From NCBI GenBank assembly GCA_029204225.1, contig CM055098.1, forward strand, positions 884,501 through 948,500: 64,000 nucleotides of DNA, given 5' to 3'. Positions 12,519 to 57,659 of this stretch are shown one piece after another. The position numbers and the translations under genes were made by a program. Position 1 is the first letter of the stretch. Each line of letters starts with the position of its first letter. The notes below the pieces were generated by a model. That model did not search any database, had not been told where the DNA came from, and was given only the letters and a program-made list of their open reading frames with translations. The stretch is from Diphasiastrum complanatum. Its lineage: Eukaryota; Streptophyta; Lycopodiopsida; Lycopodiales; Lycopodiaceae.

Positions 12519-12527
12519 ACCTGGTAC

Positions 12528-20165: not shown

Positions 20166-20168
20166 GGA

Positions 20169-20843: not shown

Positions 20844-20855
20844 TGGTATCAGAGC
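20844..20855 (+). other. Primer-binding site, tRNA-iMet type
   Basis: TGGTATCAGAGC directly after the LTR, on the plus strand, the standard plant copia primer site. Confidence 0.9.
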
Positions 20856-21606: not shown

Positions 21607-22556
21607 ATGACACCTCTAGAAGGATATCTTCTAGAAGCAATTGAAAGACTAAATACTTCTAATTACTCAATTTGGAAGTTCAAAATGGAGTCTATTTTGA
21701 TACTCCAGGATGTTATGGACATTGTGCTTGGTGTTGAGGAGGAGCCTCAAGCAAAGGCTAAAATTCCTAAGTATAGGAAGAGAGCTAGAATGACTCTACA
21801 TCTCATTAAGATGAATGTATCTAATAAAATTTTGAGAGAGATAGGATCTTGCACTACAGCCAAAGTTGCTTGGGATGCACTTAAGTCCATCTATGAAGCA
21901 AAAAATACTTCTAGAATACTCACTCTTAGGAATCAGATTTTTCAAAGTTTCCAAAGAAGTGAGGAGAGTGCATCAAACTTTGTTCTGAGAGTTAAAGATT
22001 TACATTGAGAGCTTTCATGTGTTGGTGTTACTATTAACCAAGATGAGCTAGTTCAATTCATTCTAAATGGCTTGAAAGATGGCTATGATAACTTGTTTAG
22101 TCCTTTGCCATTAAGGAGGAGTTGCCTAATCTAGAAACTCTCCAAGGAATTCTTATTTCTGAAAAAGCTAGGCAAAGCTATAAACTTTCTAGGATGAACA
22201 AACTCGGGCATGGTGGAAGTGACAAAGCCCTCTTTGTCAAGGACAAGCATAAAGGAAGAAGTAAGAACCAGTTTTCTCAAGCATCCAACAAAGACAGCGC
22301 CAAGGATCGAGACAAAGATGGTGAAAAGGATGATTCATCTCATCCTTCTACTTCAAAGACCAAGAAGAAGAAAGTGAAGTGTTTCTTCTGTGGAAAAAAG
22401 GGGCACTATGCCTCTAATTGCTTTAAGAAGAAAAACCAACTCAAACAAGCAAATCTCTCCAAAGAGATTGAAGAAGATTTTGTTGCAAGTGATGGAGAAG
22501 GATCACTCATGGTGTCCAGTTTTTCTTCATCACCTTTTAAGAAAGATGGAGCTTGA
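21607..22556 (+). pseudogene. Copia element III gag
   Basis: The first part (21607-22008) shows ERLNTSNYSIWKFKMESIL and AWDALKSIYEAKNTSRIL of the copia gag domain and ends in a TGA. After a frameshift the second part (22122-22556) has LQGILISEKAR, a Lys/Asp-rich linker and the zinc knuckle CFFCGKKGHYASNC. A further TGA lies at the start of protease, where a Trp or similar residue is expected before YIDSGASSHMC. Confidence 0.9.
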
Positions 22557-23831
22557 TACATAGATAGTGGAGCTTCTTCACATATGTGTTGTTCAAAGGA
22601 GTCTTTTGACTCAATTGTACCTTACAAAGGACTTAAGAGATCTATTTACACTGCTAATGATCATGAGTGCTCTATAGAAGAAATTGGCAACATTTCATTG
22701 AAACTTGCTTCTTAAAAAATTCTTGCACTTTCTAATGTTCTTTTCATTCCAAAATTTACAAAAAACTTAATTAGTGTGGGAAAGTTGCTTGATAATGGTT
22801 GTGATGTAAAGTTCAACTCCAATACTTGTTTTATCAAGAGAGAAGATGAGATCCTTGCTGAGGGAACTAGATGTTGTGGAATTTTTAAGTTGAATTCTTA
22901 TGAGAATGCAAACCTTTGTGAAGTTGCTTTGTTATCTAAGGAGGAGCTGTGGCATAGAAGGTTGGGACATCCTAACTTTACATCTATGTCTTCTATGGTT
23001 AAGAAGGAGAAGGCTATTGGTCTTCCAAAATCTCTTTCTATAGATTTCAAGCCTTGTGAGGCTTGTGCCATTGCAAAGTCACACAGAAAGCCATATCAGA
23101 AGTCTTTTATAAAGACTACTTATCCATTGGAACTCATACATTCAGATGTACATTTTTCCTCTTCTAAAATTGGTGGTGCAACATGTTTTGTCACCTTTAT
23201 TGATGACTTTACTATATACACTTGGTTGTATCTACTTTCTTCAAAGGCTATGGTTTTTGATCACTTCCTTATCTTCAAAGCTTATGTAGAAAAACAGTTT
23301 TCTTGCAAAGTTAAAGCTTTAAGATGCGATGGAGGAGGTGAATATATCTCCAACAAGTTTTATAATTATTGTGAAGGTGAAGGAATAAAGAGAGAATTTT
23401 CTTGTGCCTATTCTCCATAACAAAATGGAATAGCTGAGAGCAAAAACAGATCTTTATGTGAATGTGCTAAAGCAATTCGAGTAGCAGCTTCTTTGCCTAT
23501 TGAATATTGGGGTGAAGCTATAAATTGTGCAAACTATTTGTGCAATACATTACCTCACAATGCTCTTGCTGGAAAAACACCTTTTGAAGTCTTGTTTCAG
23601 AAGAAACCTAAGGCAGATCAACTTAGAGTTTTTGGTTGTACTTGCTTTGTTAATATGCCCTTGGAAACAAGGAAAAGAGATCATCCTAATTTTAATAAAG
23701 GGATCATGGTTGGATATGCATCCAACAAGAAAGCTTACAGAATCTATGTTCCCTCTACCTCAACTACAATTGAGAGTAGAGATGTGATATTCCATGAAGA
23801 TCAAAAATACATTCTTGAGAAGGCCAAGTAA
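22557..23831 (+). pseudogene. Copia element III protease-integrase, truncated
   Basis: After YIDSGASSHMC (about 22560-22590, protease) the integrase follows: LWHRRLGHPNFTS...CEACAIAKSHRKPY, ELIHSDVHFSS, TFIDDFTIYTWLYL, LRCDGGGEYIS. A TAA replaces Gln just before QNGIAESKNRSL (about 23420), and then come VFGCTCFVNMP and VGYASNKKAYRIYVP. Homology ends near 23831 with no reverse transcriptase. It is the same lineage as the minus-strand fragment at 46.1-47.7 kb (shared GGKTPFEML/AGKTPFEVL and VGYAS(T/N)KKAY). Confidence 0.9.
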
Positions 23832-24286: not shown

Positions 24287-27054
24287 TCACCAGTAATCTC
24301 CACAAGAACAAACTCCATCCATAAAGTGGTGAAATCGGTTTGCATCCCTCACAACAACCACACGTTCAACAATCTTGGAAATGAATTTTGTAACCTGATG
24401 ACAATCGTCACAAACTCTCAGATTCTTTATAATGTGGATTGGTGTCCCGTGAGGAGTACTGAGAAGACCAAAAGCTATGGCCAACTTCTCACTGTGGTTG
24501 CCAATCTCTTCACCATCAACTAGCATAGACTGGTGATTCGGAACGTATCCGGCTGCCTTCATCAACAAAACCAATTTTTTTACCGTCAAGTGTATCTTGC
24601 CTATTGCTGGATGAGATTTATCTTCTGATATAAAAGTATGCACAACTCCATTGACCTCAATCTGGCTGCGGCCTGGCTCCTTCTGTATACCTCTAACACG
24701 CATAGATTCTCTCACCTTTTCAACAAAATCAGTTTTGCCACTGGCAGCATATATGTTTGATAGCTGGACATAAGCTGGAGCAAAGTTGGGGTCTAACAAA
24801 GAACATGTTTTAGAACTTTCTCTGCCACCTCAACATCATGATATGTTTGGCATGCTCCAAGTAAAGCCATCCATAATGTGACGGTAGGTTGGACTGGCAT
24901 GCTGGTAATCATATCAACTGCATCCTTGAGTTGCCCAGCACGACTAAGAAGATCGATCATACAGCCGTAATGCTCCACTGTGAATATAAAAGTCTGAATT
25001 CGATTCAAGGAGTCAAAATAATGCAAGCCCTGATTTATCAACCCTGCATGACTACAAGCAGAGAAGAGACATGTTAAATTCAGATTCGCAAACTCCGCAC
25101 CTTCATGTTGCATTTGACCAAAAAGTTGGAGAGCTTCAAGGCCATGACCATGTAGGGCATATCCAGCCACCATTGCACTCCAGATAATTATATCTCTTGA
25201 CGGTATTCTATCAAAGACTTTACGTGCATCTTGTAAACTTCCGCATTTACTATACATGTCCACAAGGGCACTCGCCACAAAAACGTTGGATTCAAATTGG
25301 CTTTCAAGGACTAGGGAATGCACCCAACTACCTTGTTTCAGCGACAACAGGCTGGCACAAGCATTCAAAAGGCCAACAAAAGTAACCTCATTTGGCTCTA
25401 TGCCTTCAGTTTGCATCTGCTGAAATAACTCGAGCGCCTCCTTACCTAGATCTTTCTTGAGACAACCTGAAATCATAGAATTCCATAAAATCAAATCTTT
25501 GGCAGGGATGTTATCAAAAAATTTACGAGCCTCCTGTATGCACCCATGTTCTGCATATATGTCAACAAGCGCACTAGCTAAGAACACGCTTGATTCAAAT
25601 CCACATTCAAGGATTTGGGCATGAACCCGCTTGACTTGTTCTAGGGAATAGAGAGTAGCACATGCACTTAAAAGGCCTGTGAAGGTAACTTCATTTGGCT
25701 GCAAGCAAGCTTCTGGAATCTGCTCAAATAATTCAAAAGCCTCATTTACATGCCCATCCTTTGCATACCCTGCTATCATTGCATTCCAAGCGACTAGATC
25801 TTTTCTGGGCATTTTGTCAAAAACAGTGCGGGCATCTGCAATGCTCCCACATTTTGCATACATGTCAACAAGAGCACTCCCCAGAAACACATTGCTCCCA
25901 AATCCTCTCTTGCAGATCTCATCATGAATGTGTTTTCCCTCCTTGAGGGTTGAGAGGTTAGCACATGAATTCAGCAGGCCCACATATGTATACTCATTAG
26001 CTTTTGTGCCTTCCTTTTGCATCTGTTGATATAGTTCTAGGGCCTCTCGACTCCACCCATCCCTCACATATGCCATGATCATTGAAGTCCATGGTACCAC
26101 AGTCCTCACAGGCATCTTATCAAAAACTTTCCTTGCGTCATTTATGCTCCCACATTTGGCATACATGTCAATGAGTGTGCTTGCCACAAAGATATTTGAC
26201 ACGAATCCATCTAGGAGAATCTGAGAATGGACCTCTTTTCCTTTTTTCAGATCTGATAAGCTTGCACATGCATTCAAAACACCAACATATGTCACTTCAT
26301 TGGGCTTCAATCCTTCACACTGCATTTTCTCAAACAGCTCAAGTCCCTTTTCACCTTGCCCACCCTTCGCATACCCCCCGATCATTGCATTCCATGATAC
26401 CACATTCCTGCTGCTCATTTGATCAAAGACTTCACGGGCATGAATCAAACATCCACACTTCGAATACATGTCCACAAGTGTGTTTCCCACAATGGCATGA
26501 GACCCCAGCCCCTGCTTGATAATTTGAGCATGGACTTCCTTACCTTGCTCCAAAGAAGGCAGGGTAGAACATGCTTTCAAAACCCCAACGTAAGTAAACT
26601 CATTTGGTGTTATGCCTTGTCGCTGCATTTGAGAAAAAACCTCCAAAGCCTTTTCAGGTCTTCCACTCTTGGCATACGCCAATATCATTGAGCTCCATGT
26701 TCGTACATCTCGATCACGAAGCTCATCAAAAACTTCCTGGGCATCCCGAACGCATCCACATTTGATATAAAACTCCACAAGGTGGAACCCTAATTGTAGA
26801 TCCTGTTTCAATCCCTGGTCGATTATAAGTGAGTGAACAAAACTGCCACATGCCAAAGTTTTCAATTTGGAACAAGCTTTCAACGCAGAAGCATACGAGT
26901 TACAGCTAGCTTTCTCATCTAATGCTTCCAAACAAGCCAAGAGGTACATTGCCTCCTTTTGAAGTCCTTTTTTACACAGAAGGTGGATGCTCTCACTTAC
27001 GCCAGAAATGTCAGAATCCCTGCATGTTTTGTCAAATTTGTTAGACTGATCCAT
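24287..27054 (-). CDS. PPR protein with E and DYW domains (one frameshift)
   Basis: Two abutting minus-strand frames make one PLS-class PPR protein of about 920 residues without introns. The 753-codon N-part (24793-27054) is built from PPR repeats in roughly six PLS triplets of about 100 residues, each with a VVSWNAMIGGYAK- and a LVDMYAKCG-type block. The C-part (24287-24799) has the E motifs, a PG box (PGRSQIEV), HSEKLAIAFG (zinc-binding His and catalytic Glu), CDDCHQVTKFIS (CXXCH zinc ligands) and ends in D-Y-W. Known proteins of this type bind organellar RNA and convert C to U. A one-base deletion in a short T run near 24797 breaks the frame just before LLDPNFAP. This may be a real lesion or a sequence error. 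No upstream in-frame ATG exists, and a stop precedes the start within about 100 bases. No clear targeting peptide is visible. Confidence 0.93.
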
Positions 27055-27159
27055 TTCATAGCAGAAAAGGAGATCTTGCTGTGATCCAATCCTGTGTGAA
27101 ATGTGGACACAAGCTACTTTCCGATGAAGCGGCGGCGGCGAAGCTGCATGTTACTGGGT

Positions 27160-32758: not shown

Positions 32759-34281
32759 CTACAAATTTGAATTTAAATTGATATTTAACATACCTACCAA
32801 AGTAGAATGTTTTTCTTTTGACAATGGTTTTGTCAGAATATCAACCAACGTACTGTTTGTATGACAATAACTTAGTACAACATCTTTATTCTGAACTTTC
32901 TCTCTAAGAAAATGAAATTGAACTTCGATATGTTTAGTTTTTAGATGAGTTTGTGGGGTCACAGCTAGAGCTATATAGCTCTGATTGTCGCACTGGAGTA
33001 TAGTTGGACTGATCTGTGGAAAAGCAAAGATTTTGTTTCATATAATAACTGATTTGAATTGTTGATGATTAAAGAATCATCGACATGTAATGCTATTATG
33101 ACATAGCTTAACCCTTTATACTTGAGATACACATATGAGTCTACATAGCAAGAAGTAAATTGGTGCTGAAACAAGAAGTGATTAATTCTTTCATATTAGG
33201 CCCTAAGAGCTTGCTTGAGGCCATAAAGTGCCTTCTGCAATTTACATACCATATGTCCTTGGCCTTGGAGGACGTAACCTTATGGTTGATAAATGTAAAT
33301 ATCTTCTTGTATATATCCATGAAGGAATGTTGTCTGGACGTCCATCTGATGAATGTCTAGATCCTCTGCAACAACTATAGCTAGCAAGGTTCGAATAGAT
33401 TGATGTTTTACCACTGGACTGAAGGTGTCAATATAGTCTATTCCGTATACTTGCTCATATCCTTTAACCACCAATCGAGCTTTCCATTTGGATATTGATC
33501 CATCTGGCTTGAGCTTCAGTTTGAAGATCCACTTAGTGTCAATGAGTTTCGTACCTGCAGGAGGATTAACAAGACTCTAGGTCTTGTTCTTCATCAATGA
33601 GTTGTATTTAGTGTTCATGGCAGCTTTCCATTTGTCTGCATCTGACATTGACAATGCTTCTGCAACAAAGACAAGTTCATCATGATTGATAAACGCCTGA
33701 GGGACCATGATCAGGTTGTTGTCGTTGTCGTGTAGATCTTCGAACTGCAGGTTCTTGAATAGATGACTCTCCTGGGTGAATGACTGGGATATCTTCAAGT
33801 TGTGGTTGAACAATCATAGGTCTGGGCCTATCGACGGTGGAGTTGTTGGAACAAAATCCTGTATTTGTTGCTTCTGTTTAAAGTCATAAAACTTGTCTTC
33901 AAGGAATATGACATCTCGGCTGACTGATATCTGACATGTTTCAACATCATAAATGTGATATGTTTTATATGATGTTGAATAACCAATAAAAATATACTTA
34001 CAGCTTACTAGGTCTAGTTTTTCCTCAGATTAAATGGTATTTGTGCATAGCAGAGACATCCAAATACAGAAAGTTATTTCGGACTTGGTTTCAAAATTGT
34101 AGTAGGCTTCAAACGGAGTTTTAGAGTTGACTACCTTTGTGTTGGAATAATTTTGCAGATAGCAGGCTATAGATATTGCTTCACCCAAAATTTCTTGGGT
34201 GATTGAGCATTGGACATCATGGATCGTGTTGCTTCCAACAGTGTTCGATTCTTTCTTTTGGCCACTCCGTTTTGTTGTGGC
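32759..34281 (-). pseudogene. Ty1/copia pol with internal deletion
   Basis: From right to left on the minus strand: integrase end near 33900-34281 (KRKNRTLLEATRS-type block, truncated at the right by foreign sequence), the linker and reverse transcriptase start (33577-33813), YEQVYGIDYIDTFSPVVKHQ and HQMDVQTTFLHGYIQEDIYI (33280-33474), and VIIALHVDDSLIINNSNQLL (about 33060-33120). The sequence then jumps to the RNase H end HLKTKHIEVQFHFLREKVQN and LVDILTKPL. The middle of the reverse transcriptase and most of RNase H are deleted at about 33030. Confidence 0.9.
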
Positions 34282-34689
34282 ATTAGGGAAAACCTCAACT
34301 CAAAAAAGGCCCTATAAGGAACCCGAACTTAGTGAGAGAATGATTAGAAAGAGAAAATAAAAACGACAAGATTTGTTGTCATTTTTCTAGTTTTCGGTGT
34401 TGCCTGCTGTCTAACTGGTGTGGTTAACTCATTTTAACTCAAGCAAAATAAACGCGCTGCCTAAGCACACAGTCGACTGTCCATGCTACCAAGAAGTTTT
34501 TATTCATGCTCCCAAGAAGCCATATCAATAGCGGGAGGAGGAGAAGAGGATAATTTTTGGTTGAGCATGGTGTTCCCTCCAAAAATCTTTGAAAACATTT
34601 GAAAGGTAGATTATATAACATGCATGTTTAATGATTTACAAGCTTGTTTTGGTTTCGTGTGAATCATTTTTCTCGTTATATGATTTAGT

Positions 34690-35336
34690 TTGTTTGATTT
34701 TGAAATAATAGAAAAGTTTGATCTTCATATTATGCTCCCACTCGATTGTGCTCCAATTTATAAGAAAAACACCAAAGCTGGTCAGATTAATGAGACTTGT
34801 AAGAAAGAACTTAGAAAAAAAAATTGTAGAAATATTGATTTGTGGATAGTTGGATCAATCTATCCTAAAGATCCAAGTACAGGATGTTTTTTGGCTTTCA
34901 AACTATTGGCCAATTATTGAATTTTGTGTGTAATGGACATAGTGGATTGTTGGGATACTGTCAAAAGTTGAGTCAATACGGGATGTATGAAGGAATGAAG
35001 CGAACACAAGTATTGGAGTATTCGTTGATTCAAACAAACAGTGAGAAGGCAATACTTCAAGAAAATTTGCAAAAACAAATATACGAGAATATGACATTGA
35101 GCTCCAATATATTAGAATTGCAAATTATTGTTATTGATCTTCAAATATCCAATCAAGTTATGTTGAGAGACGTTGAGAATTTGAAAAGGGAAAGCTTGAG
35201 TGCTATTGTTGAAGGTGAAGTTCTTAGGAGAAAATTAAATATAAGAAAACGCAAACGACTTCCAAAAAAAGACATAGATGATCTGTCTTCAAGAAGTGGA
35301 AACAAGAAGAAAAGGATTCAAGCGTTCAAGTATTAA
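34690..35336 (+). pseudogene. Coiled-coil/basic protein, 5' part of transposase-like gene
   Basis: Two overlapping plus-strand frames. The first (34690-34914) has CKKELRKKNCRNIDLWIVGS. The second (34884-35336) begins MFFGFQTIGQLLNF, then from about residue 45 to 115 shows heptad-like Leu/Ile spacing (a probable coiled coil), and ends in two basic clusters (KRKRLPKK and GNKKKRIQ) that could be nuclear-localisation signals. An A-rich junction near 35336 (CAA|GTATTA) and TTTTTTTAAG at 35407 are possible splice sites leading to the next exon. No known family was recognised. I infer it belongs with the ORFs to 37.3 kb. Confidence 0.4.
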
Positions 35337-35430
35337 TTAAAAGAGCAAGGACACGCTTGCTAAGTTTTTATGTGCTTGTTTTTCTAATGTTTGCTATTTT
35401 TTTAAGATCGAGTTTATTATTTATTATGTC

Positions 35431-37310
35431 TTGCATATCAAGGCTTTGGTGGCGAGAGAACATTTTAAAGATTCTACGAGTATTGGAAAATCTTTGGGTT
35501 CCATATTGTCATCAAAAACTACAAAAGAATTGTTAAAGAATTCTCATTATGATAAGATTAAGAATGATATTGTTGCAGTGATTATAAAGAGCATTCGACA
35601 TGTCTTGGATGCAAGACTTATCCAAGGAGCATGTGATGATTCAAGAATTAGTCGTAAAGCATATACTCTATTGTTTAAAATTGTACAGGAAGCCTTTGCA
35701 CATGTGAAGATTCGAAAGCTATCTCTTCCTCGTCCATTTAGAGTAAAAAAAGCAAGATATTGTCTTAATGAGAGTATGACTATGCTTATAGGTGAACCAT
35801 TTCATATCAAGAAATTGTATACATGTGAGAGTGGAACATTGGAATACAATGAGTCCAACAATTTATTTTTGGATATTAACGAAGTAGTGGCATACATGAT
35901 TAAATATCACAAAATATTTGAAAGAGAAGTCCATGGAAAATTGATATTGGTTATTAAACTTGATGAGTCTAAAATTGTTAAGGGACAAAAATTGGAACAG
36001 GTAAGTATCACCTTTATGAACAGAGCATTGAACAATACTGAAAATGATGCAGCTGATTCATCATTTAGTGTTCAATCAAAGAATGAAATATGGTGGTTAG
36101 CAGCATTTCAGGTATATTTCAATTTTACTTATTATTGTATTTCATCACCTAAGTTTGCTAATGTCAATGTTCATAACTTTGTATGTGTTTGTTACTTTTC
36201 AGGTTTTAAAAGAAGACCATGCTATCTTGTCATGGATTTTTTCGACATCAAATTATGCGAAGATTATTGAAGAGCACATGGGTGGAAACAAAATATATGT
36301 GCCAAACTATGGCACATTTCAAATTTTATGGCATCTTGCAGGTGATTGAAAGACATTGAAATGTATGTATAATGTTTCGCATGGGGCAAATACCTTGTTT
36401 GTATTGTATGAAGAATTGTAAAGACTTGAATTTGACATGATCAAGAGTTGGTCCAACAAGAGATCAAGAGGATCCGAACTTTAGACCTGTGTTGGCAATT
36501 CCATTGATCGATGTTCACATATGCACATTGCATGCTAAGGTACGAGTTATTGAAAAATTGATTTACAGCCATATTTTATATGTTTGGAATACCAAACCTA
36601 AATCGGCCTCTAAAATTGCAATTGAGAGATTAGAGAAAGTACTTTCAAAAGCAGGTTTGCACAATGGAAATGTAAAAATAGAAAAAAGTGAAAAACTATC
36701 AGGTAAATCAGAGAACATTCCAAACAAGCCATCTGTTGGAGGTGCAAAAGCTAGAAGGTTTTTATCCAATCACACTGGAAAGTCTTCTACTGTGACATAC
36801 AATATTTGGAAAGACATTGTTGCAGCATCAAACGACTTTGAAGATAGGGGCAACACAAGATTAAAAAAAAGCTGCAGTGAGGCAAAATATCGACAATTTA
36901 ATTGGCATGTTGCGAAAAGAAAAGTTATCTGAAATCGACATTGCAAATTTACAGAAATATTGTGAGATATTTATCAAATCGGTAGCAGAATGTTGGGAAA
37001 AGGATTATGTTACACACTATATGGTAATTCAATATTTGTTTCTGTGCAAAAATCGTTCAACAACGTCATATATTTGATTTCTGATATACGTATTTTACTG
37101 GCTGCAGCATATTCTATTACTATCACACCACATTTTTTGCAAAAGAATATGGAAGTATGAGCATATGGTCTACGGAGAAATCACATTGGCAAGCAAGAGG
37201 AGCTTTTCATTGAGCAACCAACCATGGAGGATATAATTCAAAGAGATGTTATTATATCAATTATTTCAATGGTTTTATAGAAGAGCACATTTTAGATATC
37301 AAATCAAATA
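35431..37310 (+). pseudogene. Probable DNA-transposon transposase-like body, superfamily unknown
   Basis: A 227-codon open stretch from 35431 runs to an intron at 36112-36202 (TTTCAG|GTATAT ... TTTTCAG|GTTTTA), which joins IWWLAAFQ in frame to VLKEDHAILSWIFS. Further coding blocks follow with stops and shifts: LKCMYNVSHGANTLFVLYEE, then (36489-36932) IPLIDVHICTLHAKVRVIEK, a second likely intron (37024-37107), and FAKEYGSMSIWSTEKSHWQA plus ATNHGG near 37140-37215. Conserved-looking KLDE, DVH and EKSHW blocks are spaced as in an RNase H-fold transposase, but I cannot name the family. It is clearly decayed. Other reading: a host pseudogene. Confidence 0.5.
36112..36202 (+). other. Predicted intron (91 nt)
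   Basis: GT at 36112 after CATTTCAG and AG at 36201-36202 after a TTTGTTACTTTTC tract. Removing it keeps the frame (phase 0) between AAFQ and VLKEDH. Confidence 0.65.
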
Positions 37311-37402
37311 TTCAACAAATCTCATTTCATTCAAAAAGGAATTTCAACATCTGAGGAAAAACAGTTCAACTTCATCATCATAATAGGAAAACAATATAAA
37401 CA

Positions 37403-37561
37403 TTACATCTCCTCATCGGTATCAAAGGTCAGCTGAGCAATATGGTCATGAAGAAATTGTCTCCTCTCATATGGATCCAGATGCTCAATTGATCTTCTTT
37501 TGCTCAACTCTATGTAACTTGCGTACACTGCTAAAGCAGATGATCTTTTGGTCAAAAACAT
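37403..37561 (-). CDS. Small ORF, 52 residues, unknown
   Basis: Minus-strand ATG frame with a normal soluble-protein composition: SSALAVYASYIELSKRRSIE in the middle and FDTDEEM at the acidic C-terminus. A stop codon sits five codons upstream. It lies divergently from the H3-like gene, 345 bases from that ATG. It could be a final exon of a minus-strand gene or a remnant, and no function can be assigned. Confidence 0.25.
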   Translation of the reverse strand: MFLTKRSSALAVYASYIELSKRRSIEHLDPYERRQFLHDHIAQLTFDTDEEM

Positions 37562-37661
37562 AACCCAATATTTTTATAGCTATATCCCTCTTGACAAAAA
37601 TGATTTTGTATGTACTGTTAGGATATCTATGTCCATCACAAAAATAGGACAAAGCCATCTC

Positions 37662-37668
37662 TATATAA
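37662..37668 (+). promoter_or_regulatory. TATA box of the H3-like gene
   Basis: TATATAA in the context CATCTCTATATAAGTAGAG, 238 bases before the ATG at 37906. A 5' leader with CTCTCTCTCTGTCG follows. The spacing suits a plant RNA polymerase II promoter. Confidence 0.5.
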
Positions 37669-37905
37669 GTAGAGACCGCGATTAAAAATCATTTGCATAT
37701 CAGATTCATGAACTGCTGCTCTCTCTCTGTCGCTTAAACCCAATATTGGAGACACACAACAGTCTGGTTTCTTTTTGAGAGGTTTGGTCCCTACCCGCGC
37801 CCCTGCGATATTGCAAACTCTCTGTCTGATATCGAAGCCACACGAAAACTTGTATACAATTATTTCATCTATGATCTACTCGTGTGTCTGTGATATTGGA
37901 AAGAT

Positions 37906-38190
37906 ATGTCAAGGACTAAACAAACCGCGCGTCCACAATCTACTGTCCACAATCCACAATCTACTCAACCTACATCATCATTTCATCTTGCTGCTGCTAG
38001 ACCTCGTGCTAGGAGAACTAGTAGAAAACCTCGACCATGGCTCAGAGATATCAAGAGGTTACAGAAGTCCACCAACATGTTGATACCTAAAAGAAAATTA
38101 GTACTATCAGATGAGACCGAGCAGATGAAAGTTCAAGACAGGTCTACTTCTCACTCCTTGTCTAAATTTTTTACTAGATTACTCTTTTGA
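37906..38190 (+). CDS. Histone H3/CENH3-like N-terminal ORF
   Basis: After Met the ORF starts SRTKQTAR, identical to H3 residues 2-8 (ARTKQTARKS) except for Ser in place of Ala1, keeping Lys4. A Ser/Thr/Pro/Gln linker and an Arg-rich stretch (ARPRARRTSRKPRPW) follow. Then comes LRDIKRLQKSTNMLIP, matching the H3 alpha-N and alpha-1 start (LREIRRYQKSTELLI), with the LIP typical of centromeric H3. The histone-fold helices 2-3 are absent: after LIPKRKL it becomes acidic and unrelated (LSDETEQMKV). The frame ends at 38188-38190. One frameshift around 38140-38160 would carry it into the C48-like frame. It may be a truncated CENH3 copy, a gene-capture product or a histone-mimic domain of a transposon protein. 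Confidence 0.6.
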   Translation: MSRTKQTARPQSTVHNPQSTQPTSSFHLAAARPRARRTSRKPRPWLRDIKRLQKSTNMLIPKRKLVLSDETEQMKVQDRSTSHSLSKFFTRLLF

Positions 38191-39389
38191 TAATGACCAG
38201 TCTTTGGATATGCCCAGACGCACCACAGAGGATCTGGACAGATACATCACAAAATTAGTTGCTCTCTTTCTTAAAAGCCCTTCTCAATCAATAGAAACTG
38301 TATATAAAAATTTAGCTGTTCAATATCTAGTCGATTCCATGCTAACATTTTTTTATTCTGAACGATATATAATTTTTGACGAGTACATAGCTAAAAAAAA
38401 ATAGAGAAATTAGGTGGTCACTTTATATTTAATATATATTTGGCCTCATATATGGATTATTTTAATCCATTATAAATAATACATTATATGAATTATTTAT
38501 TGAATTCAATTGTACAAAAGCGATAGTGTTCCAGGTGTTTTTGTTTTTACTCAATTTTTTTTGACTTGCTTAAGGACGAGCATTCAGCTTCATCATGTTT
38601 ATGACCCATGCCAGGCGACACCGGAAGTTTTGTTGTACCATACTATCAAAAGTATGTATTCTTTTAATTGGATTGTATGTATGATGTTTTACTGTATGTA
38701 TTGTATGTTTTATTCGTATTTTTTTCATTTACATATCATTGACTATTTGGTTGTTTGCAGTCAGTTTGTACATATTATATCACTAAGAGTTGATGAAGCC
38801 GGTTTGTGCAATCCAAGGGTGCTGAGAATGAACTCTTTGAGATCAACACACCTCAATGTCGACATTGAGATGTACAAAAGCATGATTATATATTTTCCAA
38901 CGAAGGCCATGTGTGTAGCAAAGCAATAGAGATAATAGACGCACAGGTAACCAATTTTTCAGTTACTTTTTTCGTGATGCAAATTGCCATAAAAAAAATG
39001 TGAAACTAACATTCTCAATTTTGATGCTCGGTCCTCTCAGCAAGTTGACTCATTCAGTTGTGGCTAGTATGCCATTAAAAATGTAAAGTGCTTTATGGAG
39101 TGGTTCATTAGCCAAGGTGAAAATGTTGATATACGTCAAGTAATTTGGGTTTGGATGTACACTGATTTCATTTATATGATTTTTTATTTTTGTGTATTCG
39201 TCTAACTTATTTATTGTTGATGATTTGCAATTCACCTGTCCAAAATTCACAAAAAATGACACTTTTGAATTTCGACAAGAGATGATTAAGATTTGCCTCA
39301 CTAATGCAACATCGGTGACAATGGAACAAGAAGCTGGGGAGCTTGCACTTGAAAGGGCTGATGGAAAAGAAATTTATATAGAGAAATAG
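38140..39389 (+). pseudogene. Ulp1/C48-peptidase-like protein, several exons
   Basis: From about 38150 an open frame reads LDMPRRTTEDLDRYITKLVA and runs to 38404. After an AT-rich gap, 38510-38755 encodes GVFVFTQFFLTCLRTSIQLH. A GTATG...TTTGCAG intron is likely before LRVDEAGLCNPRVLRMNSLR (about 38790-38860). After another intron (38947-39040) the frame reads AQ|QVDSFSCG, one TAG (where Gln or similar is expected), then YAIKNVKCFMEWFISQGE. The C-terminus FTKNDTFEFRQEMIKICLTN ends at 39389. Q...D-S-x-S-C-G is the oxyanion Gln and nucleophile Cys of C48 (SUMO/Ulp1) peptidases. The usual D-S-L block reads N-S-L, and I could not identify the catalytic His. C48 domains occur in host SUMO proteases and in several plant DNA-transposon families. 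Confidence 0.55.
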
Positions 39390-39477
39390 ATAGATGGTCT
39401 TATTGAAAGGCCAATACAAAAATATATACTTCAAAAATTTACATTCAATGTGTACAAATGATGACCCTTTCGAGTCT

Positions 39478-39537
39478 TTTGATATTCGATTGTTGCTATT
39501 TCCATCATTTGATATTCTATTATTGCTATTTCCATCT
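39478..39537. repeat. 30-bp tandem repeat, two copies
   Basis: TTTGATATTC(G/T)ATT... repeated at 39478-39507 and 39508-39537 with three differences, 90 bases downstream of the C48-like stop. Confidence 0.85.
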
Positions 39538-40339
39538 TTAGAAAGATGTAATTGTATATTGTACATCTTCCATTACAATTTTCTTGAACCTGCATATGAA
39601 AACAATGGCATTACATTTTTCAATAAACAATGTGGTTTAAATTAAAAGGAGTCAAATGTTAACAGTCTAAAATTTAACAAGGAAAATTAAGCTCACCAAT
39701 ATTGTACATTTACTGATCCATCAAAGCTTTATTCTGTTTCGACAATTTCTATGCTTGACATTAAATTTGCATGGGATATGATCTTCTTGCCTTGCTTTGA
39801 TCTGCATTAACATTGCAAATAGTCTATCAATAAATCATTGTTAATAAATAACAAGATAATTGTCGTACTATACCAACAGGGTTAATATAGATTTTATAGT
39901 AAATAATGTTGTTCCCATAGAGGATAGCATTAGAAAGTTATGTTTTTGGTACAATTATGGCAAGTGGTTTCGAGTGTTATTCTGGTTGTCAATAGACATT
40001 AAAAAGTAACTAGTATCACTTATGTTTGGGATGGGCAATGTTAATAAATTCAGAACAACAATCTGGCCTCTATTGAATCGAACGAAGAGCATTCTACAGA
40101 TGAGATGTTATCAGAGTAGTACAGTGATACTACACTCTGGCTGATTAAGGTGTCAACAAAGAATCGAGAATTGTTCGATGTATTCGCGACTGTGCAGACA
40201 ATTAATTAGTCGCGTTCGCGAACTATTCATTTCTAGACAGAAGTCCTCAACAACTAAAGCCCAACTTAATGGTTAAAGAACACGAAGAGTTTAATACGTT
40301 AATAACTTATGTCAATGCCAATAAGGAAAACAGATCAGA
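39538..40339. other. No gene recognised
   Basis: AT-rich sequence without convincing frames. The right side borders the gypsy LTR. Confidence 0.5.
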
Positions 40340-46089: not shown

Positions 46090-46829
46090 CTATGTTCCTA
46101 TCAACATAGACTTTAAAATTAGGCCAAGGTTAGACCTCATCTTTATAAAGACATTCTTGAGTAGAGGTTTGGTGAGAAGATCTGCAACACAATCTGAAGA
46201 TGAAACATGCTCCAATGAGATCTCTCTTCCAATGATTTTTTCTCTCACAAAATGATGAGCCACTTCAATATGCTTGCTCCTTGCATGAAAGATCGGATTA
46301 TTTGCAAGAGCCTGAGCAGAAATGTTATCATTCTTGATAATTGGTAAATCTTCATCTGATAACACTTTAGATCCAAAAGTAGCCTTTTGATCCATAAAAT
46401 CTCCTTTGTTGTGGTTGTAAGAGATTCGTATTCAGCTTCACAGGATGATAAGGAAATAGTTGCCTGTTTCTTTGATAGCCAAGAAACCAAATTTCCTTCA
46501 AGAAATATAGTGTAAGCACTTGTGGATTTCCTATCCAACCTGTCTTTTGCAAAATCTGAATCTGAAAAGGCAATCAAAGTCAGATCTTCTCCTTTATAGA
46601 ATAGCCCATAATCCAAGGTAGAAGATATATACTTCAAGACTCTTTTAGCCAACTTCCAATGATATAACTTTGGATCCTGCATGTGTTGACTTAGCTTATG
46701 AACACAAAAGCTTAGATAAGGCCTAGTCACTGTTAACCAAATAAGTGAGCCAATAAGACTCCTATAAAGAGTGATGTCCTCAAAGGATTTTTCATCATCT
46801 TTAATAGGAACTTTTATAGTGTTCTCCAT
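46090..46829 (-). pseudogene. Ty1/copia RNase H and pol end
   Basis: Minus-strand frames contain LYRSLIGSLIWLTVTRPYLS, RVLKYISSTLDYGLFY, DSDFAKDRLDRKSTSAYTIF, SLSSCEAEYESL (RNase H) and HARSKHIEVAHHFVREKI, DCVADLLTKPL. A frameshift near 46300-46400 separates the last two parts. It is joined to integrase at 46.8-47.7 kb by deletion of the reverse transcriptase core. Confidence 0.9.
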
Positions 46830-47700
46830 AGGTGAATTTGCTCCTCCTCAAGCCTCGGCCTCACCTCTTCTTGAACAGCATCAAGATTGATAATTGATCT
46901 TGCATGAGTCTCTTTGATCTGTGCATCATCCAAGTTAAATTTCTGATCTTCATGGAAGATCACGTCTCTACTAACAACATTTTTGTCAGTAGAGGGCAAA
47001 TAAATCTTGTATGCTTTTTTAGTGGATGCATAACCTACAGAAATTCCTTTTACTGCACTAGGATCTTCCTTCTTCCTAGTTTTTAGAGGCACATGCACAA
47101 AGCATACACATCCAAAAATCCTAAGATGATCTACCTTAGGCTTTTTCTTATACAACATCTCAAATGGTGTCTTTCCTCCTATTGCAAGATTTGGAAGCCT
47201 ATTACAAATATAGTTTGCACATGCAACTGCCTCTCCCCAAAATTCTTTAGGCAGAGAAGCTTCCAGCCTAATGGCTTTTGCACATTCACACAAAGTTCTA
47301 TTTTTTCTCTCAGCAACTCCATTTTGCTAACGAGTATATGAACAAGAGAACTCTCTTTGAGTACCCTCTCTCTCACAAAGTTCTTTAAACTTATTGGAAG
47401 TGTATTCCCCTCCACTATCACTTCTTAAAGCTTTTAACTTGAAAGGAAACTACTTCTCTACATAAGCTTTAAAAGTAAGAAAAACATCATAAACCATGGC
47501 TTTTGAAGACAGCATATAGATCCAAGAATGTCTTGTATAATCATCTACAAAAGAGACAAAGCAGTTAGCTCCTCCTTTGCTCTTAGTTGATGAGAAATGA
47601 ACATCTGAGTGTATAAGTTCAAATGGTTGCTTTGTTTTGATACTTGATCTAGGAAAAGGCCTTCTATGTGACTTTGCCAGCACACAAGCTTCACAATGTA
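46814..47700 (-). pseudogene. Ty1/copia integrase, truncated
   Basis: Minus-strand LAKSHRRPFPRSSIKTKQPF, ELIHSDVHFSS, FVDDYTRHSWIYML and AERKNRTLCEC-type blocks, GGKTPFEMLYKKKPKVDHLR, VFGCVCFVHVPLKTRK, VGYASTKKAYKIYLP. A stop at about 47328 interrupts QNGVAERKN. The pol jumps from the linker after VRPRLEEEQ directly to MENTIKVPIK, so the reverse transcriptase is gone. The right end is cut at about 47700 in the zinc region. Confidence 0.9.
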
Positions 47701-47735
47701 GGGTCGAAGATCTCGTGTAGTATAGTCCTCCCGCC

Positions 47736-48505
47736 TGTCAACAAGGGTCAGATCACTGGATAGGTACCTAATTATGCATAGATGCTATTTTTAGTTAGTT
47801 TTCTACTTTCTCCCTTAACTCTACTCGCCACTAACACTACTCTCCATTAACTCTACTCCTCTACACTAACATTCATCATGATTGTAGGTGAAAGGAAGGG
47901 GATGATTAGAAAACATGGAGGGAAAAGAAGATAGAAGAGAGAGATAGAGGGAGGGTGGAGGTTAGCTCAAATGCACATTATACTTGCTACAGGAGAAACA
48001 TAAACTATTGAAACCAAAAAGCATGAACTTAAAAGCAATAGAAAACAACAAGAGCAATAGCAAGCATTGAATTGCAAATGAGGATGCTTCTCTTCCAAAA
48101 TTGGTAGAGTTTCCTCCTTCTCATTAAGCATGAAGATGGTGTACAAATGGTGCCTTTTTATAAAATGGGGAAGGCCCTCGCCCCTCAATCCTATTGCCTA
48201 TATTCACAATGATCCTATCCATTCATCTTGGACCCAACTTGATCCAAGGGTCCACAAAAAGTACATTGGTAATCACAAGATTCATGTGAGTCCCAATTTG
48301 GACCCAACTCTAAAAAATAATCTCTAAGTTTAAAAATGACTTTGGGCCTCTAGTTTTATTTTAATTCCAAGGCCCAAGTCAAGTTTATTTTATGTACAAC
48401 TTTACTTGCGTGCTCATTGGGCCATGGGCTTACGCGCACAGGATGCCATGCCCTCGCAACACATTTTATTGAATGATTTTATTTATTTACACTTTGTTGG
48501 AAATA
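47736..48505 (-). repeat. Candidate 3' LTR of the 48.5-57.6 kb gypsy element
   Basis: Lies directly downstream of the accessory ORF. A GGGGG run precedes TATTTCCAACAAAG on the minus strand (48506-48510), a possible polypurine tract. A TTTTATAAAAAGGC promoter box lies at about 48155-48168. The other end is placed at TGTCAACAAGGG. An alternative right end is 48461 (TGTTGCGAGGG). No target-site duplication was found. Confidence 0.45.
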
Positions 48506-51500
48506 CCCCCAATAGGACCCACGGCCTGAAGTAGTGCCGGTCCCTCGGCACTCTGCCGGTTTAGTAGAGTGTTTTCTTCTCCCGCCTTTGCTGGATGAGG
48601 TAGGTGGTGACGTCCTCCATAAAGTTGAGGCGGTCCAATTTCTTCATCTTTTGGCCCCTCGCAGCCAATCTTGGTCGACCCATGTTTGGAATCGGCGTGT
48701 CCATGGATCACCTTGAAGCGCAGCTCAGTAATAGACACAAGCTATTGGTAGCTGATCTTCGATTTTGTCTGAAGGTAGCACCTTATTAACATCAAAGAAT
48801 ATGGATGGGGGAAAATTGTCCCATTTAGTTTTGATCCCCATCAGATGTTCTAAGTCCCGGGTGTAAGTAGTTACCGCGCAGACTATGGGATCAGGACAAT
48901 TGATGTATTGGTTGGCGAATGCGGTGAGAGCCCTTATGGCGTCTACATCCGTAGTTCACCCATATTCTGACTGTATGACCGACCAATTGAAATTCTGAAG
49001 TGTGATCTTGTCCAGAGGCATGTCGCATTCTGTCCATTTGGATTTTCGTGGACATGGCAAGAAGTGCACGTTCACCCGTAATTGTTGTGGACTCGTCACA
49101 TAGGCCCTGATGGCCGCAGGGTCTCTTTCGAACAACTGCTGATGCCACTCTGGTTGTGGTTGGAGGGCGGGTAGTACTTGCAGTTCATTGCCCTTGATTG
49201 TCTGAGCAGAAAACGATATCTGCCAGCCGCCTCTTGATGACTCGTGGAGATACTTTGATAAAAATTCATTAATTTTCTCCTCCACGGACTTCGGTCTTCA
49301 GAAGGCCCGGCTGGCAGATATCGTACGCAAACCTTTGGATGATGTGGCTTGGCTTTGGCTGGTAGTTGTGCCTTGGCCCTAGTCTCGCATCTCAGCAGCC
49401 GTATCCGTCTGCCCTTGGTCTTGGCCTTCGGACCCTTGATCTTTTTGACATTCCCATGCTGCCTGCTGGCTCTGGTCTTGGCTTGTACTGGCTTGTGCAG
49501 CGTCAAAAGTAGGTGGCGGTGAAATTACCACGGGGGTGGGCTGGGCCTTCGTTTCCATGAATTTCTGGTAGGCCTTGAGGGATTGCTTGGCCTGGGTGAG
49601 CTCGTGCGTTGCGTTGTCCAATATTTGTTGAGCTCTATCTGGTAGCTGTTTAGGGTTTGGCTATAAACCTGCACTTGATGCCATAGAAAGCGGCCTTGAG
49701 TCCGGTGCAGGTTGAGCTAACCAGACGAGCTTTTCCTCTTGTAGTGCTTTGACCTCCATCCCCAGGCGCATATTCTCTGCTTCAAAAAGGGTAAGTTGCA
49801 CCTGAATGGGGGCAAGTTGTTGGGACGCTTCAACTTGAAGCTCCCGCACCTTTGTGGAGGCCTCAATCAGCGCTTTGGAGAGGCTTTGGATATATTTGTT
49901 GAGGCCCTCCTCCTTTTGCTGCAGCTTGGCAATCTCTTGGTGCCCTTCTTGTTCGTGTTGCTGAGCCAAAATTAGCTCTTGCTACAGCTTGGTGAGTTCT
50001 GCTTGCAACTGTGTATTACTCATCGCCAGGTGTAGTACCCTACTTTCCAGAATGGCTTTGGCTGCTACCGCATCCAGGATGTATTTTCCCAGAGGTTTGG
50101 TACATCATCGTTAGATCTATGGGGGCAGCCGGTACACTGGCACTGGCATGGGCTTTTGTTGTATCGGCCCCGATGACTTGTGGAGTACTGTCGTCATTGT
50201 CTTCTATCAGGTTCTCATTGGACCTGATGCCATCTGGGGTGGTACGATCAGCCCGATCTGGCAATGTGCAAACACTGTTTGGACAAATGCGTCATCAGGC
50301 AATGGTTGGTTGCCCTCGACAACCTTTGTTGGTGAAGCGGGTGGGGTTTGAGAAGCAACTGTGGAAACAAGAGTGAGGACAGTTTGTCCGAACGAGAGGA
50401 TGGGAGGAACAGAAGGAAACTAGAGGGTGGTGTGGAGTATGGAAGAAGGTGAGGATGGAGCAGAAAGCATCTAGCGTGGGGGTGAAAAATTGATGACTTG
50501 CATCCATGCCAGAGTGTCAGGAGACAATTGAGAATCAGAGCGATTGAATGGAATGGAAGCAACGGTGGCGACAGGAGTGATGGAAAATGCGATGGTGATG
50601 GATGGAGTAGTGGATACTGGAAGAGAAATAGGAGTGGTATCAACAGAAGAAACGGGGATGGAGACAGAAACAGATGTGGATGGAACAAGAAGAGAGATAG
50701 CGACAACAAAAATCGGAGTGGGGGGTTGCACGGAAGAAGAAGTGGTGGTTGTTGATGGGGTGATTAGTGCGATAGTGGAGGTACGTCTTCGGGTAGCAGG
50801 TGGAGATGTGGATGTAGAGGCAGCCACACATTCCTTTGTTAGCCGTTGTGTTAATAACTGCAGGTTGGGAGGAGGTGGAGGCTTGAGATGGCGGATAAAG
50901 GTTAGTATTTGGCACGAGGGTAGACAAAAGAGATGAGCGTTGGAAACCGCACACTTTCGCCTCGAGAAGTGCGCAGGCAAAGTTACACAACAAGAGGCCT
51001 GCTGCGATTTGCTCATGGTTGTTGGGTTTGATGGAGTTGGTTAGTTCTCAAATAAGAAAGCTATGCCAGTCGTATGGCACAATGGAGGGACCAGGGAATT
51101 CCATAAAGGATTCCACTATCTGACTTAGCAGCGTAGACTAGATTCTGTCCTTGCAAAATGTTGAAATAACCAGAAAGTTATTCAACAGATGCGCAACCGT
51201 TTGAATGATGGGTTCCGTGATAGCTTCTATCAAGTAACCATTGTTAGTCTGGATGGGGATTTCTGGTGTGGTTTGGATGACGAACAGTTTGATCAGAGCT
51301 TTGGCGTGGCGATGGGAAATGGGTTGACGATCACCAAACATAGTGCCAATGGTGACCATCGAGTCTTCATTAATTCTGACCTTGTATGTGGTACCTTGGT
51401 ATAGGAAGTGGAAGCGAGTCTTTTCCTCGTCCCAGGTGGCATAAGCATGAAGGGCGAGGCCCATGTTAATCTCAGAATGGAAGAGCGTCGGGTAAAATCC

Positions 51501-51644
51501 CATTGTCGCTAGAAGTGGACCGACTGTCTATAGCCATGGTTTGATCAGAGCGTCAGAGGGTAGAGGCCAAATCTGTGTGGCCTCGGGGATGTCATGCTGG
51601 ATCACCTGTTTAGCGCCAGAGTCTTCAGAGGATGAGGAGGCCAT
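48506..51644 (-). pseudogene. Accessory ORF downstream of gypsy pol (coiled-coil protein)
   Basis: Starts MASSSSEDSGAKQVIQHDIP at 51644 and continues in one frame to about 50990 with several stops. It includes MGFYPTLFHSEINMGLALHA and NFACALLEAKVCGFQRSSLL, an alpha-rich N-domain. Then comes a long Thr/Ser/Pro/Val-rich region (50250-50900), a DDAF motif near 50300, an acidic stretch (NLIEDNDDSTP), a strong coiled coil at 49661-50025 (QEIAKLQQKEEGLNKYIQSL), a Gln-rich linker, and a C-domain at 48560-49285. The C-domain includes QQLRVNVHFLPCPRKSKW, LTAFANQYINCPDPIV and WTRRFQTWVDQDWLRGAKR. Stops and shifts make this copy inactive. It follows pol in the same orientation but shows no envelope or transmembrane features. 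Function unknown. Confidence 0.5.
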
Positions 51645-52739
51645 ATTAGCAGTGATGATTAGCGGTCGAAAAAGTAGGAAAAATGGTGGATAATGGAAAA
51701 GGATGTGAAAACGGTAGAAAACTGAGAATAACGAGTGTTGGATGACAAGGAGTGTAGTTCAGAGCACTAATCAGTGTTTAGTATGATCAGATGACAGCTG
51801 GTAGGAAGTTTGGCTGCAAACGGAAAACTTGGTAATTTCAGAGTAAATTTCGGCAGAGCTTTGCTAGCAAAGGTGACAAATGACTCGAATTTAGCCCTTA
51901 TATAGCAGAATTTAGAGTGCGTCTTAGGTGAATTCCACTTTACCTTGCTTAGCTCCACCCAAATTTTGGTAGGCACCTTCTTCACAAAATTCTAAGACCT
52001 CAGAAAAGTCTGCGAGAGTTCAGAAGGTAATTTGACTACTATGCAAAGATTTTGCGAGGGTTCAGGCTGTCTGCCAGGTTTCAACTCTCGTAGGAAGTGA
52101 TCTCTCGCACAACTTGTTCCTGTGATTAAATTTTCAAGATCAGACCATGTAGGCAGGCTAATTTCACTATTTTGATTCCATTTAGGTACCTTGCGAGGGT
52201 TGGTAAGTTGATCTTGATGCTCTGTGAGGGTTCTGAAAATTCAGCTTCTGGGAACCCTCGCACACACTAAAAAATGGTGATTTCTCCATCAAGAACTCTT
52301 GCAGTGATTTTCATGGATGCATCTGGGTCAGATCTGGTGACTGTCCAAGTTTCAAGAGCTATCTCCCAGGGGAGCTCAAAAAATAAAATAAAAAAGCGCT
52401 CTTTTAGAGTGTTTTTTGATGAGATCTCGAGATTTTCTGATGTTTAACTTTTGTAAATTGGTAATCAGCTTCATGCAGGCTTGATCTGACTGTTGGTAGT
52501 TCTCTGAAAATTCAAATGGATACTTGGTAACAGATCCATCAGTCAATCTAATGATCTGCTTCCTTCTTGATCCTATCTGAATCTGGATCCTTCTTGGATT
52601 CTGATGGATTTTTCCGATCTTGCTAGATCTGGCTGAATCTTGACGGATCTAGCTTGATTTGGCTTGATCTTCTTAAATCTAGCGGTGATGCTTAGCAGAA
52701 TAGCTTTTTGTAACATGTCATCCCCAATCTGGATCTACC
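51645..52739 (-). other. Spacer between gypsy pol and accessory ORF
   Basis: No gene. TGCGAGGGTT-type motifs recur at 52010, 52048, 52190 and 52235, with the reverse form AACCCTCGCA at 52253. A GATCTGGCT/GAATCTTGA-type short-repeat stretch lies at 52550-52690. Confidence 0.6.
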
Positions 52740-53876
52740 TTACTGTGGTGGCCAGTACTTGTGCAACCAGCTACCGTTGATGGGTGTATCGAATGGTGTC
52801 CCATCTAGCTTTTCCAAATTCATGGCTCCATGATTAAGAATTTTTTTTATCCTATAAGGACCTTCGCCTGTGAGTTTTAACTTTCCCTTAATCGCCTTGG
52901 TTTTATACATCAGGACTAGATCTCCAGAGCAAAGATCCTTCTTTTGTAACCTACGATCATGCCATGCGTTGTGTCTTTTCTTTTTAGCTGCCAATGCATG
53001 CGCAGCTAGTAAGCGTGTTTCACAGAGTTTATGCAAAGCTTCGTGGCGTAGTTGTAGAGATTTGGACTCATTAAGCTGTTTCGTGGTGGAAATCCTTAAT
53101 GAAGGAACTAAAAACTCTACTGGCATTACAGCATCCTGACCATATACCAATTGAAAGGGTGTTTGATCAGTGCTTCCTTTATATGCTGTCCTGAATGCCC
53201 ATAGTGCAGCATGCAACTTATGTTCCCAATCCGATCTGCTAGCTTCAACTATTTTCATGAGCACGCTACACATGATCTTATTGGATGATTTTGCTTGCTC
53301 ATTACCACGAGGATAATAAGGCGTACTGGTTCTATGGATCACAAAGAATTCCTCTAACAGGACCTTGATGGTCTCGTTGATGAAATGGCTTTCGCGATCG
53401 ATGACTAGCTCTACCGGGCATCCAAAGCATATAATGATATTTTCATAAAGGAACTTGGCAGTGGTCCTAGCATCAGCTACTCTTACTGCCTTGGCTTCGA
53501 CCCATTTGGTGAGGTAGTCTGTGGCTACGATTATGTATCGAGCCTGGGAACTCCTTGCTGCAGGGTGAATTGGACCGATGTAATCCAATCCCCACTTTTC
53601 GAATGGTGCTTGGGCTAAGACCGGGTGTAGTAAGTCGTAATTCAATCTCGTTGGTCTCCTTGCCCTTTGGCACACATTGCACTTTTTCAAGTATTCCTCC
53701 GTATCCTTATGAATCGTAATGTCAGATGCAAAATGACCTCCACCCATGCGTTCATGTGAAAGCGAAACGATCTGGGTGGCCTCATGAGGAAGAATACATC
53801 GCCGAAGAAATCCATTTGGACCTCTTCGATACAACTGGTCGGCAATCAACTGATAAGGTCTAGCCTTTAAGATCAA
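52740..53876 (-). pseudogene. Ty3/gypsy integrase
   Basis: A 378-codon frame with the HHCC zinc region (SHERMGGGHFASDITIHKD ... KKCNVCQRARR), the catalytic core WGLDYIGPIH with first Asp, and VIDRESHF with second Asp, which replaces the more usual SD-Q/R-G-x-x-F. The third block reads GNEQAKSSNK, where the usual form is N-G-Q-A-E, so the catalytic Glu is Lys. The C-terminal part has TPFQLVYGQDAVMPVEFLVP and a GPYRIKKIL chromodomain-like or GPY/F module. It is uninterrupted but probably inactive. QLVYGQDAVMPVEF suggests the Tat/Athila side of plant gypsy elements (inference). Confidence 0.92.
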
Positions 53877-53882
53877 TTTCCG

Positions 53883-54850
53883 CTACTTTACCTTTGGTAA
53901 AGATTTGTCTGGTTGGCCCCGCATTAGATATTCAACAATGTTGGCCGCCCATTCTGGTACTGTGTCCACGTAAAATAAGATAGCATCTGCCAGCTCATCG
54001 TTGGGTTGGTATGCAATCTCCTTCCCTTTGATTCGTGACACATGATCTGCCATGTAATGTTGTTTTCCCTTGCAAACTACTATCCGAAAATCAAACTCCA
54101 ACAACAGAAGTAACTGATCCTTTCGGTGTTGTAAGTTTTATTAACGAGATAGAGCAAGGGTTGATTCTGTATAAAAAGCAAAATGTGTGGCCATCAAGTA
54201 GTGTCGAAATTTTTTAACCACATAGATCATTGCCAGTGCTTCCCTCTCTGTGGTTGAATAGTTCATTTCGGTATCACTGAGCTATCGGCTTGCAAATCGG
54301 ATTGGAAAATCCTTTTTGTGTTCACCTGGCTGGGTTAAGACTGCTCCAACTGCATACTTCGATGCATCCGTATGCACGTGAAACTCAATGGACCAATTGG
54401 GCGGGCGTAAGATTGGTGCTGAGACCAATGATCCTTAAGCTTCTGAAAAGCCTTTAGGGCTTTCTCGTTCCAATGTGGATCCGTTGTGAGTTTGTAAATT
54501 GGTCAGGCTAACTCTGCAAAATCAAGAATGAAGATCCTATAATAGTTAGCATGACCCATGAAAATGTAGACCTCGCGGATCGTCCCCGATGGTGGTAGAT
54601 CAACAATGATCTTGATCTTAGATAGATCTGTGGCGATCCCGTGTCTTCACACTATATGGCCGAGAATCAAGCCATGTGTCACCTAGAATTGACATTTTTC
54701 TGGATTCAAGGAGATCTGGTATTCACGGCATTTTTGTAACACCTTTTCCAAGTTGGATAAGTGTTCTGAATCTGGTCGATGCACGCACAGATTGTCCAAT
54801 AAAATCTCCAAAAATTTTTGCAAATAATCTTTGAATGCCATCTGCATGAC
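53883..54850 (-). pseudogene. Ty3/gypsy RT end and RNase H
   Basis: Minus-strand remnant with stops: MAFKDYLQKFLEILLDNLCV (where F/Y-x-D-D is expected, reading LLDN), SLNPEKCQF, DLPPSGTIREVYIFMGHANY, DPHWNEKALKAFQKLKDHWS, then RNase H scraps and MLEFDFRIVVCKGKQHYMAD HVSR, which marks the RNase H end. The second catalytic Asp of the polymerase is changed. Confidence 0.85.
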
Positions 54851-55366
54851 TCACTGGAAAGTGCTTGGGGCATTGGAAAGTCTGAATGGCATCACTTTAT
54901 AGGCATAGGTTCCCCATTCCGTGGCGAATGCTATTTTGTGTTGGTCCTGGGGGGCTATCTTCACCTGATTGTAGTCGTTGAATCCATCTACGAAACTGTA
55001 GGCTTCGGCGCCAGCTACCATGTTGAGGACACTTTCCGTAAATGGTAAAGGAAAATGGTCCTTTTTGGTGACTGCATTTAGCACCTTCAGATTCACACAA
55101 GTCCGCATTTTGTCGTTCTTCTTGGGTACTATAACTATCGATGATACCCATTCCGTGTACTCGATTTCATAGATGAAGTCTGCACCCATCAGCTTTTGCA
55201 AATCCTGCTTGATCAGCTCAGTATAATTCGGGTTGTAGCAGTAATAACGGCTTACCTTGGGGACTGCTCCGTCCACCGAGGGTATGGTGTGTTGGACTAC
55301 TGTTGGTGGAATGCCCTTCAGGTCACTATAACTCCATGCAAAACAGTCTTTATGTTCCACCAACAA
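54851..55366 (-). pseudogene. Ty3/gypsy reverse transcriptase N-part
   Basis: A 171-codon frame: HKDCFAWSYSDLKGIPPTVV, KQDLQKLMGADFIYEIEYTE, WVSSIVIVPKKNDKMRTCVN, NAVTKKDHFPLPF and AYSFVDGFNDYNQVKIAPQD (first catalytic Asp present), ending MPFRLSNAPSTFQ. The next codons continue in the damaged frame to the left. Confidence 0.92.
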
Positions 55367-55369
55367 TGA

Positions 55370-57360: not shown

Positions 57361-57369
57361 ACTGGTTCC

Positions 57370-57554: not shown

Positions 57555-57659
57555 AAATGGTTCATATGGTCCGTATCACTGCTGCTGCTCAGGTTGAGGT
57601 GGCATTTGCTGTCTCTAGGACAATCTTCATTCGTTAGTACTATGCCAGGTACCATTGGA

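Follow-up and report, generated by a model that had tools for sequence, protein, structure and literature searches.

Analysis of a 64,000-nucleotide stretch of the Diphasiastrum complanatum genome (GenBank assembly GCA_029204225.1, contig CM055098.1, positions 884,501 to 948,500; hereafter the window) pointed to a multicopy DNA transposon carrying a gene in which a histone H3 module is joined to a Ulp1/C48-like, SUMO-protease-like domain. The copy in the window is probably a dead copy of this accessory gene, and the fusion is legible in its sister copies elsewhere in the genome. The original prediction, made from the letters of the window, was of a possible fusion between a CENH3-like N-terminus and a Ulp1/C48-like protein, which a transposon might encode; comparison with the sister copies supported this reading at the level of sequence. 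The best explanation for the gene, which we consider somewhat probable, is that it encodes a nucleosome-tethered deSUMOylase of the element.

The histone H3 module

The open reading frame (ORF) at 37906–38190 (+) starts with MSRTKQTAR and later carries LRDIKRLQKSTNMLIP, and its H3-like character was confirmed. When a canonical H3 query was compared with the six frames of the 64-kb window, this ORF was the top match (35.0 bits, E = 1.8e-5), colinear with H3 over residues 1–65, from the first methionine to the end of the alpha-N helix; outside this ORF, the top score that three H3/CENH3 queries gave in the window was 23.5 bits. A phmmer search of the ORF against the PDB gave H3 as the top family (best E = 3.6e-4, among the 60 matches listed of 107 sequences with E ≤ 10). 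Because of the colinear match and the PDB ranking, the similarity exceeds the first eight residues, and the H3-like opening read from the ORF at the outset stood. A Pfam search of this short, damaged ORF gave no match, and protein searches with the H3 or C48 pieces of the window found nothing.

Sister copies were sought in the genome from which the window comes (5176 contigs, 1.74 Gb in total), where 150 of 2952 first-look candidates were scored and all 150 matched; the copy number is a lower bound. The figure of 150 is rough, some rows being incomplete copies and others near-identical duplicates located on small contigs; stop codons were present in many of the matches. Twenty loci were fetched, mostly picked for long open frames and thus a non-random sample. 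H3-fold sequence was found in all 20, in some with stops or gaps, and C48-region sequence in 19 (L016 lacked it), with C48 exon 2 in 17, so that the suspected joint structure recurs across the genome. The loci belonged to families A, B, and C; L019 and L021 were near-identical. Three more short loci added one B-like copy and, in L041 and L043, an H3 module diverged enough to form a fourth family, D. Near the family C copy L027 (4989–6554), a second, inverted H3-fold fragment was observed at 8939–8661.

The H3 part of the sister copies matched Pfam Histone PF00125 in 7/7 loci (best E = 5.4e-25) and solved H3 structures in the PDB over 128 residues (E ~2e-24); by these similarities, the sister copies were shown to encode a predicted histone H3 fold that is complete. 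The idea that the window held an isolated captured exon or an H3-tail mimic was abandoned, since the window copy is a truncated version of a gene that encodes the whole fold in its sister copies. The H3 folds of families A, B, and C were mutually 61–68% identical (68% for A vs. B), and element H3 folds were 40–51% identical to H3 and two CENH3 references. The proline after alpha-N (LIP) and the tryptophan in loop 1, both of which we take to be CENH3 features shared with plant CENH3, were present in the compared rows of families A, B, and C; exceptions were tyrosine for the loop-1 tryptophan in L042, LIS in L041, and LIL in L013. A longer loop 1, presumably also a CENH3 feature, was absent in families A and B, and the family C copy L027 had a 4-residue insertion. 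The likeness to canonical H3 lies in ARTKQTAR, and the whole fold is common to both; in contrast to H3 and CENH3, the element has RPW in place of RPGTVAL, is fused to a protease-like domain, and is mobile and multicopy. A small tree placed H3 and the two CENH3 apart from 8/8 element copies with a support of 100, giving no indication of parentage from H3 or CENH3.

A viral origin was considered and rejected, two viral-contig scans having given no confirmed relative. A scan of prokaryote contigs with alignment A3 returned seven metagenome-bin loci, with matches within query residues 1–129 (the H3 part), which we read as probable eukaryote contamination.

Fusion with a C48-like domain

In L015, L018, L019, L020, and L021, the H3 fold and the opening portion of the C48-like domain lay in a single open frame, joined by a Pro/Arg-rich linker; L018 had the open frame without the tail. 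The fusion that had been suspected from the window was thus found in five loci as far as this opening portion. Later C48 exons, carrying the His, Asn, and Cys motifs, were joined to the H3 frame by homology, and splicing of the His and Cys exons to this frame is indicated, not proved. Composite C48 parts built from the homology-joined exons matched Pfam PF02902 in 5/7 cases (best E = 1.7e-5) and SENP2 with E = 1.7e-4. In alignment A1, which covers three families, the His, Gln, and Cys expected of a C48 protease were each found in 6/7 rows, the catalytic residues being assigned by motif.

The possibility that the two parts are separate genes, or that repeats have brought them together by chance and the H3 match is a pseudogene exon, would suit the window alone, where the parts are out of frame, and is highly improbable, being largely contradicted by the one open frame in five loci and the joint presence in 19/20.

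The transposon

Terminal inverted repeats and a transposase flanked the gene in families A and B, which bore out the suggestion that it might be transposon-encoded; these features were tied to families A and B only, the histone module being present in C and D as well. The ends of both families are CATTA.. inverted repeats with CATTAGGG; in L009 and L022 the left end was not clear. Within the stretch of roughly 5 kb that was fetched, an upstream transposase on the same strand was found in 12/20 loci (7/11 in family A, 5/8 in B, 0/1 in C), and the order and strand of gene and transposase were identical in the two diverged families.

A protein search with the transposase gave 49 relatives among the matches listed, and the best match to the relatives' modelled fold was RAG1/Transib, so that the predicted core fold falls within the RAG1/Transib superfamily. 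Invariant or near-invariant positions of the transposase were ordered D..D..CxxC..HxxxxH..E, which presumably correspond to RAG1 residues. No Pfam transposase signature, CACTA/CMC included, was detected in eight relatives at E up to 1, and no CACTA structure occurred among the fold matches listed for the relatives. In the Adiantum nelumboides relative P0049, DUF7794 is joined to a transposase piece, perhaps through a gene-model fusion. Two additional minus-strand genes were present in family A and B copies (L014 2637–4142 and L026 7494–8318); neither matched Pfam, and the best PDB match of the second had E = 0.17.

Selection

For the H3 part, median omega was 0.36 among family-A copies (28 pairs), and the single B pair had 0.40; between families, nonsynonymous divergence (dN) was 0.31–0.43 and synonymous divergence (dS) was too high for calculation. 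Purifying selection is indicated, not proved, to have maintained the protein, with synonymous sites saturated between families. The sequence divergence fits long maintenance alongside many dead copies, the C48 part being less constrained than H3 within families.

Decay of the window copy

The remnant in the window is a family-A DNA transposon at 34281–39859 (+) with its right end missing, delimited by where homology to sister copies begins and stops; alignments of 1573–5117 nt with the 11 family-A copies fetched showed 83.2–89.4% identity. The left terminal inverted repeat (CATTAGGG..GGCCC) occupies 34281–34312 (+) and has the same end in L011, L012, L015, and L024; its inverted partner stands at the right ends of L009, L010, L012, L014, and L018. 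A decayed gene for the transposase of predicted RAG1/Transib fold, with stops and frameshifts, was located at 34714–37197 (+) by tblastn with relatives P0001, P0002, and P0007. It is followed at 37403–37573 (−) by a last-exon remnant of the minus-strand gene termed ORF2 (recognized by visual comparison with the ORFs in L014, L009, and L017), which in fuller copies lies between the transposase and the H3 gene. A TATA box, TATATAA, at 37662–37668 (+), 244 nt 5′ of the ATG, is kept among family-A copies: of the 11 tested (window included), 10 had the motif no more than 450 nt from the ATG, and 8 had it at −235 to −251.

In the window ORF (37906–38190), the tail and the alpha-N helix with LIP are followed by a linker remnant. 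Relative to L014, about 420 nt have been lost (junction at 38088–38092, seen with other copies also), and H3 helices 1–3 and most of the linker are absent because of this deletion; about 1.9 kb of the minus-strand gene has gone as well. The remark that helices 2–3 of the fold were missing was therefore right for the window, where helix 1 is lost too, and did not hold for the sister copies. That these helices might be absent by design was rejected, because other copies carry them. The single frameshift placed near 38140–38160 proved to be a 32-nt deletion at about 38137 (junction at 38136–38138 in the alignment), which accounts for the frame change; an intron joining the H3 and C48 frames at 38100–38240 was rejected on the same ground.

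The C48-like gene continues, all on the plus strand and as located by tblastn, with its N-terminal part or exon 1 at 38162–38652 (matched to L015 exon 1, with further damage), exon 2 at 38768–38923 (..HIISLR..MNSL.., the preceding HHW motif lost), exon 3 at 39038–39139, and the last exon at 39231–39386. The downstream frame had been credited with a C48-like Q...DSFSCG motif; QVDSFSCG was indeed located at 39041–39064, within QQVDSFSCG, and is followed by TAG (39065–39067) in place of Trp, where most sister copies have SCGW.

Elsewhere in the window, a pentatricopeptide-repeat gene whose product ends in DYW at the C-terminus (24290–27150, −), a mark of land-plant DNA, and several copia- and gypsy-type retrotransposon pieces (8089–23417 and 46248–59098) were recognized by eye.

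Proposed role and alternatives

In the proposed mechanism, the H3 module would pair with host H4 and place the fusion in chromatin, or be held with it at histone chaperones. The module would thus serve as a chromatin tether for a SUMO/ubiquitin-like protease, which could there strip SUMO off silencing, repair, or centromere proteins. The outcome may help the element to be expressed, to transpose, or to insert safely, through silencing relief, repair control, or targeting, with cutting and joining presumably performed by the RAG1/Transib-like transposase. Because helices 1–3 and HHW are lost and a stop follows the Cys motif, the window copy itself cannot act in this way.

Several observations weigh against this interpretation. 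Pairing with H4 is a prediction from fold similarity, and the tail start differs in L013, L026, and the window. In 7/7 rows of A1, Asn (MNSL) takes the place of the catalytic Asp expected in C48; in L020, His and Gln are replaced by Tyr and Arg, and in L027, Cys is replaced by Tyr. Owing to these changes, the domain may be a papain-like (H-N-C) or weak protease, or may be dead. Constraint on C48 exon 1 within families was loose (median omega 0.57 for A and 0.56 for B), and its omega of 0.22 between A and B (36 pairs) comes from a mean dS of 2.9, near saturation. Pfam and PDB searches with the window's damaged C48 pieces gave no C48 match. No target-site duplication was found in L012, L014, L023, or L026, in which both ends were seen, and the transposase model was modest (predicted local distance difference test, pLDDT, 67; predicted template modelling score, pTM, 0.50; Foldseek query TM 0.22–0.35).

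A bolder form of the proposal, which we regard as speculative and rather unlikely, is that a selfish element makes its own nucleosomes: the H3-Ulp1 protein would replace H3 or CENH3 in selected chromatin and create a local zone of deSUMOylation, perhaps at centromeres or at the element's own copies. The H3K4me3 tail signals to the RAG recombinase via RAG2, and the ARTKQ tail (H3K4 region) may similarly signal to the RAG1-like transposase.

Plant transposons pick up host genes, and the elements could have swept up a host H3-Ulp1 (or H3) gene as a passenger with no role in transposition. The stops in many of the 150 matches and the lack of a transposase inside the fetched stretch in 8/20 loci would agree with this. 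We consider it unlikely, since families A and B share the gene's order and strand with the transposase and have H3 folds 68% identical, intron places are common to the families (by eye), and omega between families is low, though dS is saturated; moreover, no host fusion gene was seen, host H3/CENH3 loci not having been searched.

Alternatively, the protein could be a decoy or mimic without protease activity, its ARTKQ tail and H3 fold binding host readers or chaperones and its C48 part merely binding SUMO. ARTKQ was kept in 6/6 rows of A3, from three families, while the remaining tail diverges, and both the uniform Asp-to-Asn change and the weaker within-family constraint on the C48 exon (0.56–0.57 vs. 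0.36–0.40 for the H3 domain) speak for such a protein. The retention of His, Gln, and Cys in three families speaks against it and leaves the decoy quite unlikely.

Relation to known systems and significance

In its predicted transposase fold and the D..D..CxxC..HxxxxH..E order, the element resembles RAG1, RAG-like, and Transib proteins. RAG1/Transib systems have CAC(A/T)GTG-type ends and a 5-bp target duplication; the element differs in its CATTAGGG ends, in the lack of a 5-bp duplication in four elements, and in adding the H3-C48 gene and two extra genes. Marseillevirus and bracovirus types encode histones, and the element resembles them as a parasite with its own core histone, although we know of no virus-encoded histone fused to a SUMO protease. 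On the basis of a limited literature search, no described mobile element with the pairing of H3 and a SUMO-protease-like domain is known to us.

According to two reports, Ulp1/C48 proteases are encoded by DNA transposons, namely Mutator-like elements, Ginger1, and some Cryptons, with Ulp1 at the transposase end in Ginger1 and on a separate protein in CryptonS (PMC2836005, PMC3212892). The main text on Ginger does not contain the word histone; the Crypton paper uses it twice, both times for deacetylase complexes of the host. Ulp1 in transposons being already known from these reports, the new part would be the histone module on a transposon.

The predicted fold would place a RAG1/Transib-type transposase in plants, and the natural CENH3-like fusion may offer a chromatin-tethering tool. 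If the proposed role is correct, a genomic parasite would directly edit the chromatin that silences it, by means of a transposon-encoded histone-SUMO protease, which raises the testable question of whether mobile elements can write nucleosomes, beyond reading or evading them.
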